Below, piece by piece: positions 1,221-10,784 of a stretch of DNA of 28,879 bases. The translations under genes were made by a program, and so were the position numbers. Positions within the stretch are counted from its first letter, which is position 1. Every line of letters starts with the position of its first letter. The notes under the pieces are model-generated. The model was not told the origin of the DNA and made no database searches. It saw nothing but the letters and a program-made list of their open reading frames with translations. Source of the DNA: Actinobacteria bacterium casp-actino8 (GTDB lineage: Bacteria; Actinomycetota; Acidimicrobiia; Acidimicrobiales; Ilumatobacteraceae); the NCBI GenBank assembly GCA_001510455.1, contig LFFH01000007.1:1-28879 (forward strand), read 5' to 3'.

Positions 1221-1243
1221 GTTTCTGACAGACTGTCAGAAAC
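1221..1243. promoter_or_regulatory. Operator candidate upstream of the sterol side-chain operon
   Basis: A perfect inverted repeat with 11-bp arms (GTTTCTGACAG and its complement) around a single central base. Its core is TCTGAC-N5-GTCAGA, which recurs at 10070-10084 in front of the ChsE4-like gene. Size and symmetry fit a TetR-family dimer site. The centre contains CAGACT (1229-1234), a plausible -10 element, so a bound repressor would block the promoter. It lies 28 bp upstream of the preferred ATG at 1272. It differs from the known mycobacterial KstR consensus (TNNAACNNGTTNNA). No TetR gene is in the window. Confidence 0.65.
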
Positions 1244-1271
1244 CGTCCAGCCAGGGGAGACAGGCACGCAC

Positions 1272-2480
1272 ATGCACATCGGCGACACACCGGACGAGGC
1301 GACTTTCCGGGTCGAGGCGCGCAGTTGGCTCGGCCAGCACGCCCGCTTGAAGTCGGAGGGAGCCGGCGAACTCGGCGAACACGACTTGGCCGGCCACATC
1401 CAGAAATGCCGGGACTGGCAGCGCGTCCTCTTCGACAACGGCTGGGCCGGAATCACGTGGCCGAAGCAGTTCGGAGGACGGGGCGCGAGCGCGATTCAGG
1501 CGGCGATCTTCGCCGAGGAGATGGCGGCCTTCGACGTGTCCACCGGCGCCTTCGCGGTGTCGATCGGCATGGTGGGCCCGACCCTCATCGCCCATGGCTC
1601 ACCCGAACAACAGGAACGTCACCTCGCCCCGATCCTGCGTGGCGACGAAGTGTGGTGCCAGCTGTTCAGCGAACCCGGCTCGGGCAGTGACCTGGCATCT
1701 CTCGGCACCCGCGCCGTTCGCGACGGCGACGAGTGGGTCGTGAACGGGCAGAAGGTGTGGACGAGTTTCGGCCAGTTCGCCGACTACGCGATTCTTCTGG
1801 CTCGAACCGACACCGAAGCTCCGAAACATGCCGGCATCACCTACTTCATTCTCGACATGAAGAGTCCCGGCCTCGACATCCGCCCCATCACGCAGATCAC
1901 CGGAGTTCAGCACTTCAACGAAGTGTTCCTGAGCGACGTGCGCATTCCGAACGCGAACGTTCTCGGCGAGGTGGACGGCGGCTGGAAGGTCGCTCAGACC
2001 ACCCTCAGCAACGAGCGCAGTCACATCGGATCGGGCGGCGGTGGTTGGACGGTCGCTCAACTCGCCGAGATCGCTCGCGAACGCGGACTCGCCGACGATC
2101 CACGAGTCCGGCAAGGCCTCGCTCAAGCACACATCCGCTCCGAGACCCTTCGTTTCCTGGGTTTCCGTATGCGTACGGCGATGAGTCAGATGCGCATGCC
2201 CGGCCCCGAAATGCTCACCCTGAAACTCGCCTACGCCAATCACTGGCGACTCACGGCCGATCTGGCCGCCGAGATCGTCGGCCCCGGCTTCACTCTGTGG
2301 GGTGACGACGCTCCGCACGACAACCAGTGGGGCCAACACCTTCTCTCGCAATTCGCCATCCGCATTGGCGGCGGCACCGACGAGATCCAACGCAACATCA
2401 TCGCCGAGCGTGGGCTCGGTCTTCCTCGTGAACCCCAGTCCGACAAGGACCGTCCCTGGAGCGCGCTGACGCGCGCCTGA
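1272..2480 (+). CDS. Acyl-CoA dehydrogenase, ChsE2/FadE29-like
   Basis: A 402-residue flavoprotein of the acyl-CoA dehydrogenase superfamily. It shows QLFSEPGSGSDLASL (substrate/FAD loop), WVVNGQKVWTS, the mid-domain FNEVFLSDVRIP and the C-terminal FAD motif IGGGTDEIQRNIIAERGLGLPR. In Mycobacterium tuberculosis such proteins act as alpha2-beta2 heterotetramers; FadE28-FadE29 dehydrogenates the three-carbon steroid side chain. The partner here would be the gene at 3545. The start chosen is ATG 1272, preceded by GGGGAGA at 1254-1260. The upstream in-frame ATG at 1203 would place the operator palindrome inside the coding sequence and adds an unconserved N-terminus. First gene of a run with short gaps or overlaps to 8797. 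Family certain; exact substrate inferred from synteny. Confidence 0.85.
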   Translation: MHIGDTPDEATFRVEARSWLGQHARLKSEGAGELGEHDLAGHIQKCRDWQRVLFDNGWAGITWPKQFGGRGASAIQAAIFAEEMAAFDVSTGAFAVSIGMVGPTLIAHGSPEQQERHLAPILRGDEVWCQLFSEPGSGSDLASLGTRAVRDGDEWVVNGQKVWTSFGQFADYAILLARTDTEAPKHAGITYFILDMKSPGLDIRPITQITGVQHFNEVFLSDVRIPNANVLGEVDGGWKVAQTTLSNERSHIGSGGGGWTVAQLAEIARERGLADDPRVRQGLAQAHIRSETLRFLGFRMRTAMSQMRMPGPEMLTLKLAYANHWRLTADLAAEIVGPGFTLWGDDAPHDNQWGQHLLSQFAIRIGGGTDEIQRNIIAERGLGLPREPQSDKDRPWSALTRA

Positions 2481-2516
2481 CGTCAGCCTCCCTCAGCCAG
2501 AAAGCGTTCGAGACAC

Positions 2517-3548
2517 ATGACTTCCACCGAATCCGCCACCGGCACGATCGTCGACGAGACTCCCGAAGCCAAGGCTGCGTTCTTCGCCGAACTACAGACG
2601 TACGTCGGCCTCGAGATCGGACCTCCCGAACCGGCTCCCGATCTGGTGAACGCTCCGATGATCCGTCACCTCGTCGAAACAGTCGGTGATCGGAACCCCG
2701 TCTACACCGACGCCGAGCTGGCCGCGCAGAGCGTGCACGGGGGCATCGTCGCCCCGCCCACCATGTTGCAGTCGTGGGTGATGGTCGGCATCGAAGGTCC
2801 GAAACGTGACGGCGACGGTCCGTACGAACGCATGAACCAACTGTTGTTCTCGCGCGGATTCACGAGTGTGGTCGGCACCAACAGCGATCAGGTGTATCAC
2901 CGCTATCTCCGACCCGGCGACCGCCTCACCATGCGCACGGTCATCGACACCATCAGCGACGAGAAGACGACCGGCCTCGGCACCGGTCACTTCGTCACCA
3001 CACGTCAGGACTACTACGACGCCGACGAGCAACTGGTCGGTCAGATGATGTTCCGCATCTTCCGATTCCGACCCAAGGCGAAGGCGCCCACCCAGAAGCC
3101 GAAACCACCTCGTCCGCGACCAGCCACCACGTTCGACAACAAATGGTGGTTCGACGGCCTGAACGACGGCCGGCTCCTCGCCCAACGTTGTACCGAGTGC
3201 TCGACTCTTCGCTTCCCCACCGGCCCGATGTGTCCGTCGTGTCACTCGCTCTCGTGGACCGACGTCGACATGCCGATGTCGGGAACGATCCACAGCTTCG
3301 TGATCACGCACTACCCGCAGATCCCGAGCTTCGACTATCCACTCCCCATCCTTCTGGTCGACGTCGACTCGCCAGCCGATGCCCGACCCGATGACATGAC
3401 GGTCCGCATGATCATGAACGTGAAGGGCAACTCGTCCGAGGGCCTCGAGGTCGGCGCGCGCGTCGGCATCGTGATCGAAGCGACTGACCCCGATATGAAA
3501 CTTCCCTTTGCCGTACTCGAGGGAACCGACGCAGGAGGCTCACAGTGA
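2517..3548 (+). CDS. chsH2: MaoC-like / DUF35 OB-fold fusion, ChsH2-like
   Basis: A 343-residue two-domain protein. The N-terminal hotdog (MaoC/FAS1-DH-like) domain spans roughly residues 20-180. A Pro-rich linker leads to a C-terminal DUF35 domain with a zinc ribbon (Cys225, Cys228, Cys239, Cys242) followed by the OB fold. The layout matches M. tuberculosis ChsH2 (Rv3542c). There ChsH1-ChsH2 hydrates the steroid C3 enoyl-CoA, and the DUF35 part binds Ltp2 to make the retro-aldolase. In the hydratase motif Asp58 is kept, but the catalytic His position holds Tyr63 (NPVYTD), so this subunit probably does not catalyse hydration itself. The gene ends in a GTGA overlap with the next start, implying coupled translation. 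Shine-Dalgarno at its own ATG is weak. Confidence 0.85.
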   Translation: MTSTESATGTIVDETPEAKAAFFAELQTYVGLEIGPPEPAPDLVNAPMIRHLVETVGDRNPVYTDAELAAQSVHGGIVAPPTMLQSWVMVGIEGPKRDGDGPYERMNQLLFSRGFTSVVGTNSDQVYHRYLRPGDRLTMRTVIDTISDEKTTGLGTGHFVTTRQDYYDADEQLVGQMMFRIFRFRPKAKAPTQKPKPPRPRPATTFDNKWWFDGLNDGRLLAQRCTECSTLRFPTGPMCPSCHSLSWTDVDMPMSGTIHSFVITHYPQIPSFDYPLPILLVDVDSPADARPDDMTVRMIMNVKGNSSEGLEVGARVGIVIEATDPDMKLPFAVLEGTDAGGSQ

Positions 3549-4669
3549 ACTTCGAACTGAGCGAGGAACAGGAGGTCATTCGCGACCTCGCCGAGCAGGT
3601 CTTCGCCGGGCAATCGACCGTCGATCGAGTGAAGAGCGTCGAAAAGGGTGACGGCTTCGATCGCGAAACTTGGTCCCAACTCGCGGCGAGTGGCGTTCAG
3701 GCTCTTTGCGTGCCCGAGGAGAACGGCGGCAGCGGATTCGGTCCGGTCGAACTCTCACTCGCCCTCATGGCTCAGGGACGGCACGTGGCACTCGTTCCGC
3801 TGTGGACGACTGGCGTGGTCGGTCTCACCGTCGCCGACTACGGAACCACCGAGCAGCGATCACTGCTGAACGCCGTCGCCGACGGCAGCAAGGTCGTCAC
3901 ACTCGGACTGGCCGAATTCGGGGCGAACGACATCGCCCGACCCAACACCACCGCAGTGGTCGACGGCGGCACCGTGAAGGTGACCGGCACCAAGCCGGCC
4001 GTCCCGTTCGCTCAACACGCCGACGTCGCTCTGATCTCGGTTCGGCGTGAGAACGATCGGCCGGCCCTTCTCCTTCTGCCTCTCGATGCACCGGGAGTGA
4101 ACGTCGTCCCGGTCACCACGACCAATCTCGAGCCGCACGCTCACCTCGACATCGACTGCACCCTGCCCGTCACGGCTCTCCTCGGGACCCTGCCCGACGG
4201 TTCGTGCGAGCACGACGGTGGCGAGATGCTGCGCTCAGCCTTCGAACACGCAGTCGTCGCCCTCGCGTCCATTCAAGTAGGGGTCGCCGAAGGCTCGATC
4301 ATCATGACGGCCGCCCACCTGTCGAGCCGCAAGCAGTTCGGAAAACCGCTGTCGGCTTTTCAGGCCACCACCCAACGAGCCGCCGATGGCTACATCACCA
4401 CCGAAGCGATGCGTGTGACGGCTCTCAATGCCGCTTGGCGTCTGGCCGAGGGATTCGATGCGCGCCGTGACGTCGCGGTCGCTGCGTACTGGGGCAGTGA
4501 GGGGGCACAACAGGTCGTCACGGCCTCACAGCATCTCCACGGCGGCATCGGTGCCGACGTCGACTACCCCGTGCACCGTTTCTTCCTGTGGGGGATCCAA
4601 CTCGCCAACCAACTCGGTTCGGCGAGTTCGCATCTCGCCCGCCTCGGCCAACTCATCGCCCGCGCCTGA
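3545..4669 (+). CDS. Acyl-CoA dehydrogenase, ChsE1/FadE28-like
   Basis: A 374-residue acyl-CoA dehydrogenase-fold protein starting at a GTG that overlaps the preceding stop, with a strong AGGAGG at 3533-3538. The N-terminus (NFELSEEQEVIRDLAEQVFA) and middle (SSRKQFGKPLSAFQATTQRAAD) are typical of the family. The C-terminus carries LHGGIGADVDYPVHRFFLW, the form seen in FadE28-type subunits of heteromeric steroid dehydrogenases. It lacks the EPGSGSD loop of its partner at 1272, as expected of the less canonical subunit. Together they would desaturate the steroid C3 side-chain CoA thioester. Its position between ChsH2 and ChsH1 differs from the M. tuberculosis order, where both dehydrogenases precede ChsH2. 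Confidence 0.8.
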   Translation: MNFELSEEQEVIRDLAEQVFAGQSTVDRVKSVEKGDGFDRETWSQLAASGVQALCVPEENGGSGFGPVELSLALMAQGRHVALVPLWTTGVVGLTVADYGTTEQRSLLNAVADGSKVVTLGLAEFGANDIARPNTTAVVDGGTVKVTGTKPAVPFAQHADVALISVRRENDRPALLLLPLDAPGVNVVPVTTTNLEPHAHLDIDCTLPVTALLGTLPDGSCEHDGGEMLRSAFEHAVVALASIQVGVAEGSIIMTAAHLSSRKQFGKPLSAFQATTQRAADGYITTEAMRVTALNAAWRLAEGFDARRDVAVAAYWGSEGAQQVVTASQHLHGGIGADVDYPVHRFFLWGIQLANQLGSASSHLARLGQLIARA

Positions 4670-4685
4670 CGAGACTGGAACATTC

Positions 4686-5114
4686 ATGACCGCCACCAAG
4701 CTTCCCGACACTCGAACGTTCGCATCGGTGAACGTGGGCGACGTGCTTCCGTCGCTCGACCTTCCGCTCACTCGCACCCTCATCGTTTCGACGGCCATTG
4801 CCACTCGCGACTACCAGGTCGTGCATCACGACCCCGACGTGGCCAAGGAGCGCGGGTCGCAGGACATCATCATGAACATCCTCACGTCGAACTCGTTCGT
4901 GGGCCGTTTCGTGACCGACTGGACCGGGCCGAATGCGATCCTCCGTTCGGTCAAGATCCGCCTCGGCGCCCCCAACTACCCCGGCGACACCATGGTGATC
5001 ACCGGTGAGGTCACGTCGGTCGATCCGGGTGAACGTCTGGTGACCGTCGCCGTCAAGGGATCGAATTCACTCGGCGACCACATGAACGCCACGGTCGAAG
5101 TGGTGCTGCCATGA
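4686..5114 (+). CDS. chsH1: MaoC-family enoyl-CoA hydratase, ChsH1-like
   Basis: A 142-residue single hotdog domain. The start is ATG 4686, 16 bp after the previous stop; the frame is open further upstream, but that part lies inside the dehydrogenase gene and is unconserved. The hydratase signature RDYQVVHHDP provides Asp42 and His47, five residues apart as in MaoC-like R-hydratases. It therefore supplies the catalytic residues that its presumed partner ChsH2 lacks (Tyr63 at the His position). The expected role is hydration of the alpha,beta-unsaturated C3 side chain of the steroid CoA ester. The stop overlaps the next start as ATGA, so ChsH1 and Ltp2 are probably translationally coupled. Confidence 0.85.
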   Translation: MTATKLPDTRTFASVNVGDVLPSLDLPLTRTLIVSTAIATRDYQVVHHDPDVAKERGSQDIIMNILTSNSFVGRFVTDWTGPNAILRSVKIRLGAPNYPGDTMVITGEVTSVDPGERLVTVAVKGSNSLGDHMNATVEVVLP

Positions 5115-6304
5115 GCATCACCCGAATCGGCAATCGACTCGGTGGCAAGGCGGCCATCGTCGGCATCGGTGCCACCAAATTCAGCAAGGACTCGGGTCGC
5201 AGTGAGATGAGTTTGGCGAGCGAAGCTGTTGCAGCCGCCATCGCCGACAGTGGTCTGGCTCCGTCCGACATCGACGGCATGGTCACGTACTCCACCGACA
5301 ACAATCCCGACATCGAGATCGCTCGCCACGTCGGCATCGGATCACTGAGGCATTTCAGTCGGGTCCACTACGGCGGTGGCGCAGCGTGTGGAACCATCGT
5401 CATGGCCGCCATGGCCGTGGCCACCGGCGTCGCCGACGCCGTCGTGTGTTACCGCGCGTTCAACGAACGCAGTGGACGCCGCTTCGGTGCCGGAGTGCAA
5501 GACCTCGACGCGTCGGCCACCGCCGAGCGCGCCCAGTTCTCCTGGACCACCCCGGCCGGACTCCTCACGCCCGCCAGCTGGGTGGCCATGGTGGCTCGTC
5601 GCTACATGCACCTGTACGGCGCGACGTCGCTCGACTTCGGTCGGGTCGCCGTGGCCGGACGTCGGCACGCCGCCAACAATCCGGCCGCCTGGTTCCACGA
5701 GCAGCCCATCACCCTCGAGGATCACCAGAACAGCCGTTGGATCGTCGACCCCTTGCACCTCCTCGACTGCTGTCAGGAGACCGACGGCGGACAAGCTCTC
5801 GTCGTCACGAGCGTCGAGCGTGCTCGCGACCTTCCCAACACGCCGGCCGTGGTGCTCGCCGGCGCCCAAGGTGCCGGCGACCAGCAATGGACGATGACGT
5901 CGTTCTACCGCGACGACATCGCGCAGCTCCCCGAGATGAAGGTCGTCGCCGACGAGCTCTGGACATCCTCGGGGTTGTCGCCATCCGACATCCAGACGGC
6001 GATTCTCTACGACCACTTCACGCCCTACGTACTCATGCAGCTCGAGGAATTCGGTTTCTGTGCTCGGGGCGACGCCAAGGACTTCATCGCCGACGGTGCA
6101 CTCGAGATCGGCGGTCGACTGCCGATCAACACCCACGGCGGTCAGCTCGGTGAGGCCTATCTCCACGGCATGAACGGAATCGCCGAGGGTGTCCGCCAGG
6201 TGCGTGGAACCAGCGTGAACCAGGTGGATAGTGTCGAGAACGTGCTGGTGACCGCCGGCACCGGAGTTCCGACCAGCGGATTGATCCTCGGGACCGACCG
6301 CTGA
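5111..6304 (+). CDS. ltp2: Ltp2-like thiolase-fold retro-aldolase
   Basis: A 397-residue thiolase-superfamily protein of the SCP-x/Ltp type: GGGAACGTIVMAAMAVATGVAD in the N-terminal half and NTHGGQLGEAYLHGMNGI in the C-terminal half. In M. tuberculosis and Thermomonospora curvata, Ltp2 with the DUF35 domain of ChsH2 cleaves the 17-hydroxy C3 side-chain CoA ester to a 17-keto steroid and propionyl-CoA. The ChsH2-ChsH1-Ltp2 neighbourhood supports this over a biosynthetic thiolase. ATGA overlap with ChsH1. Length is usual for the family. The typical C-terminal thiolase CxGG motif is absent, as expected for this group. Confidence 0.85.
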   Translation: MSITRIGNRLGGKAAIVGIGATKFSKDSGRSEMSLASEAVAAAIADSGLAPSDIDGMVTYSTDNNPDIEIARHVGIGSLRHFSRVHYGGGAACGTIVMAAMAVATGVADAVVCYRAFNERSGRRFGAGVQDLDASATAERAQFSWTTPAGLLTPASWVAMVARRYMHLYGATSLDFGRVAVAGRRHAANNPAAWFHEQPITLEDHQNSRWIVDPLHLLDCCQETDGGQALVVTSVERARDLPNTPAVVLAGAQGAGDQQWTMTSFYRDDIAQLPEMKVVADELWTSSGLSPSDIQTAILYDHFTPYVLMQLEEFGFCARGDAKDFIADGALEIGGRLPINTHGGQLGEAYLHGMNGIAEGVRQVRGTSVNQVDSVENVLVTAGTGVPTSGLILGTDR

Positions 6305-6332
6305 ACGATCACTTCACGACAACGAGGGGTAG

Positions 6333-7562
6333 ATGATGAAGTACGACCTGAGTTTCGACACACTCGACGTGATCTCGCACGCGTCGTACAAGTTCGGCCC
6401 TCCCTTCGAGTTGTACAAGCAACTTCGAGACGAAGCACCGGTCCTGAAGTGTCGGGGCGTGGAACCCGCCTACACCGAAGAATTCTGGGCCATCACCCGC
6501 CATACCGACGTGGTCGAGGTGAGCCGCAAGTTCCAGACGTTCTCGTCGGCCAAGAAGGGCTCCCTCATGAACGAGGCCCTGACCGAGATCGACAACGACT
6601 CGGCGCGCCTCATGATCGATCTCGATCCACCCGACCACACTCGTCTGCGCACGCTCGTGAGTCGAGGCTTCACGCCAAAAGCCATGCGCATGCTCGAGTC
6701 GCATTTCCGCGATGTCGCCGTACAACTGATCGAGGAGGCCATCGAGGCGGGAAATGTCGACTTCGTCGACAAGGTCTCGGCCGAACTTCCGCTCATCGCC
6801 ATTGCCGAATTGGTGGGTATCCCGGTGGAGGACCGACGCAAGGTGTTCGACTGGTCGAACGCCATGATCGGCGCCAACGACCCCGAATACGGATCCGATC
6901 CCGAAGGTGGCATGGCCGCCGCCACCGAGCTCTACATGTATTCCAATCAGTTGGCTCTCGAACGCAAGGCCAATCCGAAGGACGACATCATCACCACGCT
7001 CATCAGCGAACACGACGGTGACGTGCTCACCGAGCACGAATTCGATCTCTTCATGATGCTGCTGGCCGTGGCGGGCAACGAGACCACACGCAACGGCATC
7101 AGCCACGGTGTGGCGGCGATGATCGAACACCCCGACGAATGGCGTCGCCTGCAGTCCGACCCGTCGCTCGTGACCTCGGCCGTCGAGGAAATCCTCCGCT
7201 GGGCCACCCCGGTCAATTACTTCCGCCGGGCCGCCACGTGCGACGTAGAGCTGCACGGCGTGACGATCGCCGAAGGCGACTCGGTCACCATGTTCTACCC
7301 ATCGGCCAACCGCGACGAGCGAGTGTTCGCCGACCCCGACCGCTTCGACATCGGTCGCACTCCCAACCCGCACGTCACCTTCGGGGGCGGCGGACCGCAC
7401 TTCTGCCTCGGCTCCAACCTCGCTCGCCTCGAGATGCGCATTCTCTTCGAGGAGCTCTCGAAGCGGGTCGCCGGCATCGAACTCACCGGGGAGATCTCGA
7501 GGCTCCAGTCGAGTTTCATCCACGGCATCAAGCACCTTCCCGTTGCGCTCTCGCGACGTTGA
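6333..7562 (+). CDS. Cytochrome P450, CYP125/CYP142-like sterol hydroxylase
   Basis: A 409-residue soluble bacterial P450. It has the I-helix oxygen-activation motif AGNETTRN, the K-helix ExxR in EEILRWATP, and the heme loop FGGGGPHFCLGSNLAR with Cys358 as the iron ligand. The N-terminal FWAITRHTDVVEVSR followed by FSSAKKG is common in the CYP125/CYP142/CYP124 group, which oxidise the terminal carbon of the sterol side chain. Position between Ltp2 and the thiolase parallels cyp125 in the mycobacterial igr region. Two adjacent ATGs (6333, 6336) are possible; GAGGGG at 6324-6329 sits slightly better for the second. Electron-transfer partners are not encoded here. CYP125 and CYP142 cannot be separated by eye. 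Confidence 0.8.
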   Translation: MMKYDLSFDTLDVISHASYKFGPPFELYKQLRDEAPVLKCRGVEPAYTEEFWAITRHTDVVEVSRKFQTFSSAKKGSLMNEALTEIDNDSARLMIDLDPPDHTRLRTLVSRGFTPKAMRMLESHFRDVAVQLIEEAIEAGNVDFVDKVSAELPLIAIAELVGIPVEDRRKVFDWSNAMIGANDPEYGSDPEGGMAAATELYMYSNQLALERKANPKDDIITTLISEHDGDVLTEHEFDLFMMLLAVAGNETTRNGISHGVAAMIEHPDEWRRLQSDPSLVTSAVEEILRWATPVNYFRRAATCDVELHGVTIAEGDSVTMFYPSANRDERVFADPDRFDIGRTPNPHVTFGGGGPHFCLGSNLARLEMRILFEELSKRVAGIELTGEISRLQSSFIHGIKHLPVALSRR

Positions 7563-7594
7563 TCCCCGATCGCTCACTCACCCCACACCACTGA

Positions 7595-8865
<1,271 letters not shown>

Positions 8866-8869
<4 letters not shown>

Positions 8870-10047
8870 CGGGCGCGGGCCAGACCAAGACCAGCCGACG
8901 CGACGAGTTCGCGCTGAATCTCGTTCACACCACCACCGAAGGTGTTGATCTGAGCGGCGCGAGCCGCTCGCTCGACCTCACCGTGGATCACGGCTCCCGG
9001 CGACCCATCGCGCAGGTGGGACACCGGTCCGAGAATTCCCTGCAGGATGCGGTACACCTCGACGGCCCGCTCGGTGCCGAACACCTTCACACCACTCGAC
9101 TCCGCCGGACCGAGCGTGTTGTCAGCCACGCTCTTGGCGAGCTTCCACGTCATCAGCCGGATGGCATCGAGTAGGGCCGCGCACTTGGCGAGGTCGGCCT
9201 GGACCCAGGCAAGATCGATCATCTTCTCGCCGTTCGGACCACCCGATGGCGTCACACGACACCATGTCGTGACGTCGTCGCACAGGCGCTCGGTGAGACC
9301 CGAGAGAGCGGCCAGACCGACGCGCTCGTGATTGAGCTGCATCGTGATGAGCTTCCACCCACCGTTGATCTCGCCGATCACGTTCTCCTTCGGCACACGA
9401 ACGTCGGTGTAGTAGGTCGCGGTGGTGACGACTCCACCCACCGTGGTGATGGGCGTCCATTCGAACCCCGGCGTGTCGGTGGGAACGATGATGATCGTGA
9501 TGCCCTGATGCTTCGGGGCCTCGGTGTCGGTGCGGCAGGCCAACCACACGTAGTCGGACTGATTGGCACCCGACGTGTAGACCTTGTTGCCGTTGATGAC
9601 CCACTCGTCTCCGTCGAGCACGGCGGTGGTGCGCAGACTGGCGAGGTCGGTGCCGGCTTCGGGTTCGGTGTATCCAATGGCGAAATTGACCTCACCCTTC
9701 AGAATTCCGGTGAGGTACTGATCCTTCTGAGCCTGGGTTCCGTGCGCCATGATCGCCGGTCCGACGGTGTTGACGGTGACGAACGGGAACGGAGCGTGCG
9801 CCCGCTGGATCTCGTCGAACATGATGAATTGATCGGTGGCCGGACGGCCCTGACCGCCGAACTCGACCGGCCAACCGAGTCCGAGCCAGCCATCGGACCC
9901 CATCTGACGAATGAGTTCACGGAAAATGGGTTTGCCCTCCCCGGATTCTCCGAGTTCGGCACGAACCTCGGGAGTGAGCATGGCGGCGAAGTACTCGCGC
10001 AGCTCTTTGCGAAGGGCTTGCTGATCGGGTGTCTCGGCCAGATACAT
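8866..10047 (-). CDS. Acyl-CoA dehydrogenase, ChsE4/FadE26-like
   Basis: A 393-residue acyl-CoA dehydrogenase. The N-terminus (ETPDQQALRKELREYFA), GWLGLGWPVEFGGQGR, FAIGYTEPEAGTDLASLRTTA, ATYYTDVRVP and GGWKLITMQLNHERVGL resemble FadE26 (ChsE4) as I recall it. In M. tuberculosis that protein pairs with ChsE5/FadE27 to start beta-oxidation of the C8 side chain. C-terminal FAD motif FGGGVNEIQRELVA is present. No ChsE5-like partner is adjacent; it may lie elsewhere or outside the window. The gene faces the main cluster tail to tail. TAGGGT ends 7 nt before the ATG and no Shine-Dalgarno is seen, suggesting a leaderless mRNA, with the shared operator just upstream. Confidence 0.8.
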
Positions 10048-10053
10048 GCCCCG

Positions 10054-10059
10054 ACCCTA
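10054..10059 (-). promoter_or_regulatory. -10 box of the ChsE4-like gene
   Basis: TAGGGT on the minus strand at -12 to -7 relative to the ATG at 10047. This is the spacing expected if transcription starts at the A of the start codon. The palindromic operator begins only 7 bp upstream of the box, so a bound repressor would cover the -35 side of the promoter. Confidence 0.5.
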
Positions 10060-10065
10060 CCCCAC

Positions 10066-10088
10066 CGATCTGACGCCACGTCAGATCG
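10066..10088. promoter_or_regulatory. Operator candidate upstream of the ChsE4-like gene
   Basis: Perfect inverted repeat with 10-bp arms (CGATCTGACG and its complement) around CCA. Its core, TCTGAC-N5-GTCAGA (10070-10084), is the same as in the palindrome at 1221-1243; both sites are 23 bp long. Occurrence of the same core before two separate sterol transcription units points to one dimeric regulator. The 119-bp gap to the RibD-like gene also contains this site, so that gene might be affected too, but it is about 80 bp away. Confidence 0.65.
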
Positions 10089-10154
10089 AGATCGCCCCCG
10101 ACCACGGCTCTGATCACACGTCACACGAGGGTCTCGGCATCCCCTCCCACCCGG

Positions 10155-10166: not shown

Positions 10167-10784
10167 GTGCACCTTCTCCACCCCCGGGCCGGTCAGGTGA
10201 CGGTCGCCGAGGCCTACGACCTCACCAGTCGCCGCCGGCACCCCGATCGACCCTGGATCGTCATGTCGATGATCGCCACCGGTGACGGAGCCGTGGCGAT
10301 CGAGGGGGCGTCACATCTGCTCGGTGGCCCCACTGATCGTGACGTCTTTCTTCACCTCCATCGCACGGCCCACTGCGTGTTCGTCGGAGCCGAAACCGTG
10401 CGGGCCGATGGTTACTCGCCTCTTCCCGCTCATCAGACCCTCGTCGTCATGTCGTCATCGGGCGACCTCGGCCGTCATCACGACGCGCACGTCTCGGCCG
10501 GCAATACCCGCATCGTTTCCGGCGACGTGCGTGACATCGTGAAGAGCCTCCCGGGCGACGTGTGCGCGCTCGAAGGCGGCCCGTCACTCAACGGTCAGAT
10601 GCTCGGCGCAGATCTCGTCGACGAAGTGTGGTTGACCGTCGCGCCACGATTCGTCGCCGGCCGCAGCGATCGGCTGGCCGAAGGTGCCTGGGCCATGCGC
10701 GAGCCGTGGCATCTCGCCCACGTCGCTCACGACGGTGGTTTCGTGTTCTTGCGTTACTTACGAGACTCCGAACCGGGAGAGTGA
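10167..10784 (+). CDS. RibD C-terminal-domain reductase (DHFR-like fold)
   Basis: A 205-residue protein of the RibD_C/dihydrofolate-reductase superfamily. PWIVMSMIATGDGAVAIEGAS, then GGPTDRDVFLHLHRTAHCVFVGAETVRADGYSPL, and ALEGGPSLNGQML near residue 135 follow the order of RibD reductase domains. No deaminase domain is present. The best-known actinobacterial relative is Rv2671, a RibD-like protein reported to reduce dihydrofolate. Location near folate-related genes (11671, 12423) makes a pterin or flavin reductase role plausible, unproven. GTG start at 10167 with TAGACA at -12 to -7 and no Shine-Dalgarno. Its 3' end overlaps the convergent GpgS gene by 27 bp. Confidence 0.75.
   Translation: MHLLHPRAGQVTVAEAYDLTSRRRHPDRPWIVMSMIATGDGAVAIEGASHLLGGPTDRDVFLHLHRTAHCVFVGAETVRADGYSPLPAHQTLVVMSSSGDLGRHHDAHVSAGNTRIVSGDVRDIVKSLPGDVCALEGGPSLNGQMLGADLVDEVWLTVAPRFVAGRSDRLAEGAWAMREPWHLAHVAHDGGFVFLRYLRDSEPGE

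Follow-up and report, generated by a model that had tools for sequence, protein, structure and literature searches.

The stretch of DNA analyzed in this study comprises 28,879 nucleotides of contig LFFH01000007.1 from Actinobacteria bacterium casp-actino8, hereafter called the window, and carries an operon for degradation of the sterol side chain together with two copies of the palindromic core TCTGAC-N5-GTCAGA. These two sites are very probably operators of a dedicated steroid-catabolism regulon which extends over Ilumatobacteraceae and members of their class and stands under a TetR-type regulator with a TetR_C_38 domain. The sites and the genes around them are:

1221..1243, no strand: predicted operator site 1, a perfect 23-bp palindrome with its core at 1224-1240 (TCTGACAGACTGTCAGA), ahead of the side-chain operon; the end of the core is 31 bp from the ATG at 1272
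10066..10088, no strand: predicted operator site 2, 23 bp, core 10069-10085 (TCTGACGCCACGTCAGA), between divergent acyl-coenzyme A (CoA) dehydrogenase and RibD_C genes
1272..2480, plus strand: acyl-CoA dehydrogenase, ChsE-type by context, first gene of the side-chain operon (Pfam)
2517..3548, plus strand: fused hydratase, ChsH1/ChsH2-like (MaoC-type plus DUF35), with matches to the PDB sequences of ChsH2 (6e-33), ChsH1 (9e-33) and ChsH2(DUF35) (8e-23)
3545..4669, plus strand: second acyl-CoA dehydrogenase, ChsE-type by context (Pfam)
4428..5114, plus strand: MaoC-like hydratase (Pfam MaoC_dehydratas, residues 108-210); the open reading frame (ORF) overlaps the preceding gene and its start is uncertain
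5111..6304, plus strand: Ltp2-type lipid-transfer protein/thiolase (NCBIfam PRK07855, which we take to be Ltp2; 682.6 bits, cut-off 469)
6333..7562, plus strand: cytochrome P450 of CYP125 (steroid C26-monooxygenase) type (PDB sequences: CYP125MRCA 3e-139, CYP125 about 1e-98)
7613..8797, plus strand: FadA5-type steroid 3-ketoacyl-CoA thiolase (NCBIfam NF005889, 611 bits, cut-off 515)
8866..10047, minus strand: acyl-CoA dehydrogenase downstream of site 2 (Pfam), its ATG (10047) 21 bp from the core of site 2
10167..10784, plus strand: RibD_C-domain gene, divergent from site 2 and 81 bp from its core (Pfam)

In gene content, the side-chain operon presumably resembles the mycobacterial igr region plus fadA5. 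Its FadA5-type thiolase shares 82-90% identity with proteins from twelve related loci (L001-L012), and the divergent pairing of the RibD_C and acyl-CoA dehydrogenase genes is also kept in the related genomes G003 and G005.

Scanning of all 28,879 bases revealed exactly two matches to TCTGAC-N5-GTCAGA, while 0.001 matches per window are expected from the base composition (probability of at least two about 6e-7). The preliminary description of this DNA, which had reported a common core at two sterol-gene promoters and considered chance identity improbable, was right on both points. It had also called both sites perfect inverted repeats, which is true of site 1 (11 of 11 pairs) but not of site 2, where 10 of 11 pairs match and the mismatched pair adjoins the centre. 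With up to two mismatches allowed, the window has four matches compared with 2.2 expected; the two-mismatch matches at 10109 and 16440 are thus at chance level, and only the two exact sites stand out. A further claim, that -10 boxes lie at or near the sites, was dropped because the pattern TANNNT is not enriched there (0.20 of 61 promoter directions, with a shuffled mean of 0.15 and a largest shuffled value of 0.30). Directly upstream of site 1, the window also contains two near-identical palindromes, GTCCCC(C)ATGGGGGAC (1168-1183 and 1197-1211), which were found in none of the other loci compared.

Genome-wide tests were made in relatives of the window's organism, including a family set of 61 genomes, which we take as Ilumatobacteraceae, and a class set of 247 genomes, which we take as Acidimicrobiia. 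Five related genomes contain 12, 7, 15, 14, and 11 exact sites, whereas the reversed control pattern is absent from them and in the wider sets appears once in one of the 61 family genomes and in three of the 247 class genomes. At the composition of the window, about 0.09 exact sites per 2.5 Mb would be expected. For placement, a distance of at most 260 bp from a called gene start was used, with up to 60 bp of overlap allowed. By this measure, 39 of 40 exact sites from G001, G003, G005, and the window are near a called start; the nearest one is at a median distance of 31 bp, and at least two called starts are in range for 30 of the 40 sites. Operators are typically located 10-120 bp ahead of start codons, often between divergent genes. 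From 61 exact sites, the consensus W-TCTGAC-R-NNN-Y-GTCAGA-W was derived; the two outer bases of the spacer are complementary in 42 of these sites.

The sites are also conserved at orthologous promoters. Among orthologues with at least 74% identity and upstream sequence, site 1 is exact in 7/7 cases for the first dehydrogenase of the operon, 48-51 bp from the start codon and with the spacer AGACT in all of them (the partial-alignment row L007 was left out). For the dehydrogenase downstream of site 2, selected in the same way, 24 of 25 orthologues retain the site, 12 of them exactly and 12 with one mismatch (none in L024; L009 was left out, having no upstream sequence). Exact sites were found in 22 and sites with at most one mismatch in 28 of 31 related FadA5 loci (L001-L030 and L040), and none of 33 mycobacterial FadA5 loci contains the exact pattern. 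Loci L009, L010, and L016 stem from public records of metagenome-assembled genomes (MAGs) titled Bifidobacterium breve; they encode a thiolase 77-84% identical to that of the window and carry the operator, and the titles look wrong.

Genes behind the sites were grouped across genomes and representatives were named by profiles, so that the annotation covers part of the targets. One target is a divergent pair of a PRK07856 short-chain dehydrogenase/reductase (SDR) and a PRK07938 hydratase, the latter presumably EchA20, also from its position, followed by IpdA (3e-98 to PDB 6con, which we take to be IpdAB), an IpdB orthologue, and a FabK/IpdC-type reductase. Further targets are genes of FadE30 and IpdF type, FadE31, FadD3 (over its profile cut-off), and a cluster of alcohol dehydrogenase, ligase, two SDR, and TetR genes in this order, as well as genes for P450, TauD, amidohydrolases, aldehyde dehydrogenase, F420-dependent luciferase-like oxidoreductases, and a binding-protein/ABC-MFS gene pair (ATP-binding cassette, major facilitator superfamily). 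Ten target types (SDR, EchA20, IpdA, IpdB, IpdC, FadE30, IpdF, FadD3, FadE31, and the SDR preceding the TetR gene) have 49-68% identity with genes in the KstR2 region of Mycolicibacterium litorale. In the relatives, the orthologous promoters of SDR/EchA20-IpdAB, FadE30-IpdF, and FadD3 carry TCTGAC-N5-GTCAGA. Annotated targets include steroid-specific orthologues, in line with the expectation that the sites precede steroid and acyl-CoA genes. The regulon extends beyond the side-chain degradation to which the preliminary description had assigned both sites, as it also includes C/D-ring genes.

Some loci behind the operators have unusual features. In G001, two tandem operators are located 21 bp apart (L110:15952 and 15973), corresponding to two helical turns, and in G003 the same spacing is found at L100:8852 and 8873 together with a third copy bearing one mismatch. 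In both genomes they are flanked by a periplasmic-binding-protein-like gene on one side and an MFS-ABC fusion gene on the other, and the regulator may bind cooperatively here, at a possible uptake system for steroids. The fusion gene L110:13669-15831 encodes 720 residues combining an MFS domain with a LivF-type ABC ATPase, an unusual transporter architecture. Amidohydrolase-type genes (L108:7990-9198, L111:1773-3494, and L106:4171-5373) stand directly behind operators in 5, 4, and 2 compared genomes, respectively; we know of no step in the known sterol pathways for them.

The TetR genes of three genomes were listed to find a candidate regulator, and one of them closes a gene cluster that opens with a site. 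Its product matches the Pfam families TetR_N (PF00440, 34.5 bits, cut-off 24) and TetR_C_38 (PF19352, 82.4 bits). The AlphaFold model of this protein (predicted local distance difference test, pLDDT, 91.8) is all-helical with a TetR-like C-terminal domain, and all 50 matches listed in the structural comparison are TetR-type regulators, with EthR ranking first. In the family set, a strong TetR_C_38 match was found in 11 of 61 genomes, and these same 11 genomes, and no others, have at least three sites; two genomes with weak matches (G055 and G061) have no sites, and six other genomes have one site. In the class set, at least three sites are present in 40 of 62 genomes with a strong TetR_C_38 match and in 0 of 185 genomes without one. 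The preliminary description had asked whether a TetR-family gene lies next to a site. In 10/10 family genomes for which the upstream sequence is available, a site (seven exact, three one-mismatch) is located 1.0-6.2 kb upstream of the TetR gene; G026 and G005, where the contig ends too early, were left out of this count. A same-strand gene run, with a gap in G045, links the site to the TetR gene in seven of these 10 genomes. At distant class loci, a site with at most two mismatches was detected within 330 bp upstream of the first helix in 7 of 20 cases, compared with 0.6% of shuffled windows. Nine TetR_C_38 genomes have no exact site; the loci of three of these (G151, G096, and G291) were examined, and in each a site with one or two mismatches immediately precedes the TetR gene. 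In all 31 strong members examined, the recognition helix has the sequence [SA][PS]A[TA]FY[QH]YF; in both weak members it is different. The TetR protein with the TetR_C_38 domain is the likely regulator of the sites, and the window's own genome presumably encodes one as well.

Several observations weigh against a steroid regulon under this regulator. Fewer than three exact sites occur in 22 of the 62 TetR_C_38 genomes, including the nine with none, and 35 of the 185 genomes without TetR_C_38 carry one or two sites. The Fisher P of about 2e-30 for the 247 class genomes ignores kinship and is not a true probability, because the sampling is not corrected for it. The genes between site and TetR gene are not resolved in G030 and G047 and only partly in G045, and directly upstream of the TetR gene, sites of at most two mismatches are absent from 13 of the 20 distant loci. 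One of the 40 sites used for placement is intragenic, in a 613-residue ORF of G003 (L097:5982), and its spacer departs from the common R-NNN-Y pattern. Gene calls are poor in G013, and three of the 31 related FadA5 loci (L003, L024, and L026) are without a site even at one mismatch. Finally, the steroid-thiolase profile is over its cut-off in 42 of the 61 family genomes, among them 31 of the 50 without the motif, so that this profile alone is no marker of the regulon; within the family set, no genome without the motif scored above 600 bits, while nine of the 11 motif genomes did.

A broad regulon of FadR kind for acyl-CoA or fatty-acid metabolism, of which the steroid genes would form only a part, has a low but appreciable probability. 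Acyl-CoA dehydrogenases, hydratases, SDRs, and ligases do make up many of the annotated targets, the model of the TetR protein is similar to EthR, FasR, and FadR, and the motif genomes G031 and G043 have no thiolase above 600 bits. However, the recurrent targets include steroid-specific orthologues (IpdA, EchA20 type, FadD3, FadE30, FadE31, CYP125, ChsH, Ltp2, and FadA5), and G031 (FadE31 type) and G043 (FadE30 type and an Rv3549c-type SDR) have such targets as well. There is a slim chance that the sites are real operators bound by a different transcription factor sharing the same genomes. The survey covered TetR only among the transcription-factor families, and co-occurrence of TetR_C_38 and sites could stem from shared ancestry, but this leaves aside the site upstream of the TetR cluster in every family genome counted and just upstream of the gene in 7 of the 20 distant loci, as well as the nearly invariant recognition helix of the strong members. 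Furthermore, short palindromes are typical TetR operators according to the excerpt of PMC4482099.

That the sites are drifted KstR or KstR2 operators bound by orthologues of these regulators is highly improbable, even though they are carried by the same target genes and even by orthologous promoters. The KstR2 box, given as AnCAAGnnCTTGnT in the excerpt of PMC3068626, has 0 matches in 634 kb comprising the relatives' loci and the window, and two in 504 kb of the relatives' FadA5 loci, which is about chance. In 28 kb of M. litorale, it has two matches, located in the SDR/EchA20 and FadE30/FadD3 intergenic regions, where it stands in other mycobacteria according to Kendall et al. (PMC3068626). 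The candidate regulator is 23% identical to KstR2 of M. litorale, the identity of which was checked against PDB 4w97 (1.5e-99), and neither KstR nor KstR2 is among its 15 PDB sequence matches. The M. litorale protein was used here since PF17932, tried as a KstR2 marker, was too broad (matches in 10 of 12 genomes and in 7 of 14 control genomes). The KstR box, in the consensus that we assume for it, occurs in all 33 mycobacterial FadA5 loci compared (L031 left out), absent from the window, and found seven times in 504 kb of the relatives, near chance. TetR_C_20, which we take to be the KstR-type C-terminal domain, is over the cut-off in one of the 11 motif genomes of the family set, and the candidate has TetR_C_38 instead. 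On these grounds, the candidate was rejected both as KstR2 and as KstR, and the motif differs from both boxes, as had been supposed from the window. In L205, neither KstR nor HsaC was recognized from ORF lengths and first residues, and no further search was made. Palindromes can be mobile repeats or terminators, but the probability of chance or of a repeat element without regulatory function is negligible given 7-15 sites per genome instead of the roughly 0.09 expected per 2.5 Mb and the conserved position ahead of orthologous start codons.

We judge the operators and their TetR_C_38 protein to form a steroid regulon specific to this lineage, in which the regulator has been replaced and the sites are probably bound by one so-far undescribed repressor doing the job of the mycobacterial KstR and KstR2. 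The preliminary description had proposed an undescribed sterol regulon, to be checked by a genome-wide scan, by the clustering of sites at promoters, and by their conservation in related genomes; site counts, placement, targets, orthologous promoters, and the TetR gene in the relatives all agree with it. By analogy with KstR, KstR2, and acyl-CoA-responsive TetR regulators, the TetR_C_38 protein would bind the operator as a dimer or a pair of dimers when substrate is absent and would thereby block transcription in both directions from divergent promoters. A steroid- or ring-derived CoA thioester building up during breakdown of the sterol side chain or rings would then release the regulator, which may also limit its own gene cluster by autoregulation.

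The 11 family genomes with the motif (G001, G003, G013, G026, G030, G031, G043, G045, G047, G059, and G060) have C/D-ring genes. A strong KshA_C match is present in one of them (G013, 104.6 bits), and weak partial matches in G003, G043, and G059 are barely over Pfam's low cut-off; in the close relatives G002, G004, and G005, nothing is over this cut-off. Among the other 35 motif genomes in the class set, 23 have a strong KshA_C match, and the M. litorale control has five. The HsaC-like profile TIGR03213 gave a strong match in one of the 11 genomes (G059, 339 bits, below the cut-off) and is weak evidence only, since no genome passed the cut-off. G015, G017, and G056 have both KshA_C and HsaC-like matches, but neither TetR_C_38 nor the motif. 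The gene L174:11090-12808 was considered as KstD and rejected, since it matched none of the NCBIfam families at 1e-40 and none of the structures at 1e-30. The freshwater branch may be without the usual A/B-ring enzymes or may have replacements for them; alternatively, the missing KshA and HsaC are gaps in the MAGs. Enzymes of the regulon with no assigned step are candidates for A/B-ring chemistry. It is a tentative and rather doubtful idea that one EthR-fold TetR protein took the place of both KstR and KstR2 in much of the class and that the freshwater regulon maps a so-far unknown A/B-ring route. If so, F420-dependent luciferase-like oxidoreductases, TauD dioxygenases, and amidohydrolases could perform this chemistry, or the cells could use remnants of the rings that others leave behind.

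For sterol breakdown in actinobacteria, the regulators described are KstR and KstR2, and a steroid regulon under a TetR regulator is an already known kind of system. In the open-access PMC literature, with subscription papers and preprints outside the scope, the motif and the regulator are not described among the matches listed, and nothing was found there joining KstR2, KstR, and Acidimicrobi or dealing with steroid degradation in Ilumatobacter. Absent from these listed matches are the regulator family, the operator, and the combination of side-chain and C/D-ring genes under one regulator. A different TetR family apparently acts at orthologous promoters with a different operator, which would make this a clear swap of the regulator with the regulated pathway retained. 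For uncultured freshwater bacteria, the operator is a cheap genomic tag for steroid-use genes, including enzymes with no assigned step; as it lists these genes genome by genome, the apparently missing A/B-ring chemistry becomes directly testable.

Compared with known systems, the regulon resembles that of KstR2 (Rv3557c type) of mycobacteria and rhodococci, which in the excerpt of PMC3068626 is a TetR regulator encoded near C/D-ring genes, with a palindromic operator between divergent genes and with autoregulation. TetR gene position, operator position, and orthologous promoters are alike, and the TetR_C_38 protein presumably controls C/D-ring gene promoters as KstR2 does. Unlike KstR2, it has TCTGAC-N5-GTCAGA as operator and not AnCAAGnnCTTGnT, a low sequence identity and another C-terminal domain, and a regulon that also takes in side-chain genes. 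KstR (Rv3574) has a large, dispersed regulon covering CYP125, igr-type genes, and FadA5; the regulon described here is similar in its dispersed nature and in these targets, but its regulator is without TetR_C_20, presumably the KstR domain. EthR of M. tuberculosis is alike in fold, which was the only basis of comparison (20% identity), and its first rank among the structural matches was not taken as membership. FasR, FadR, DesT, and other acyl-CoA-responsive TetR proteins differ in that the targets here belong to steroid catabolism and not to fatty acid synthesis or ordinary beta-oxidation.

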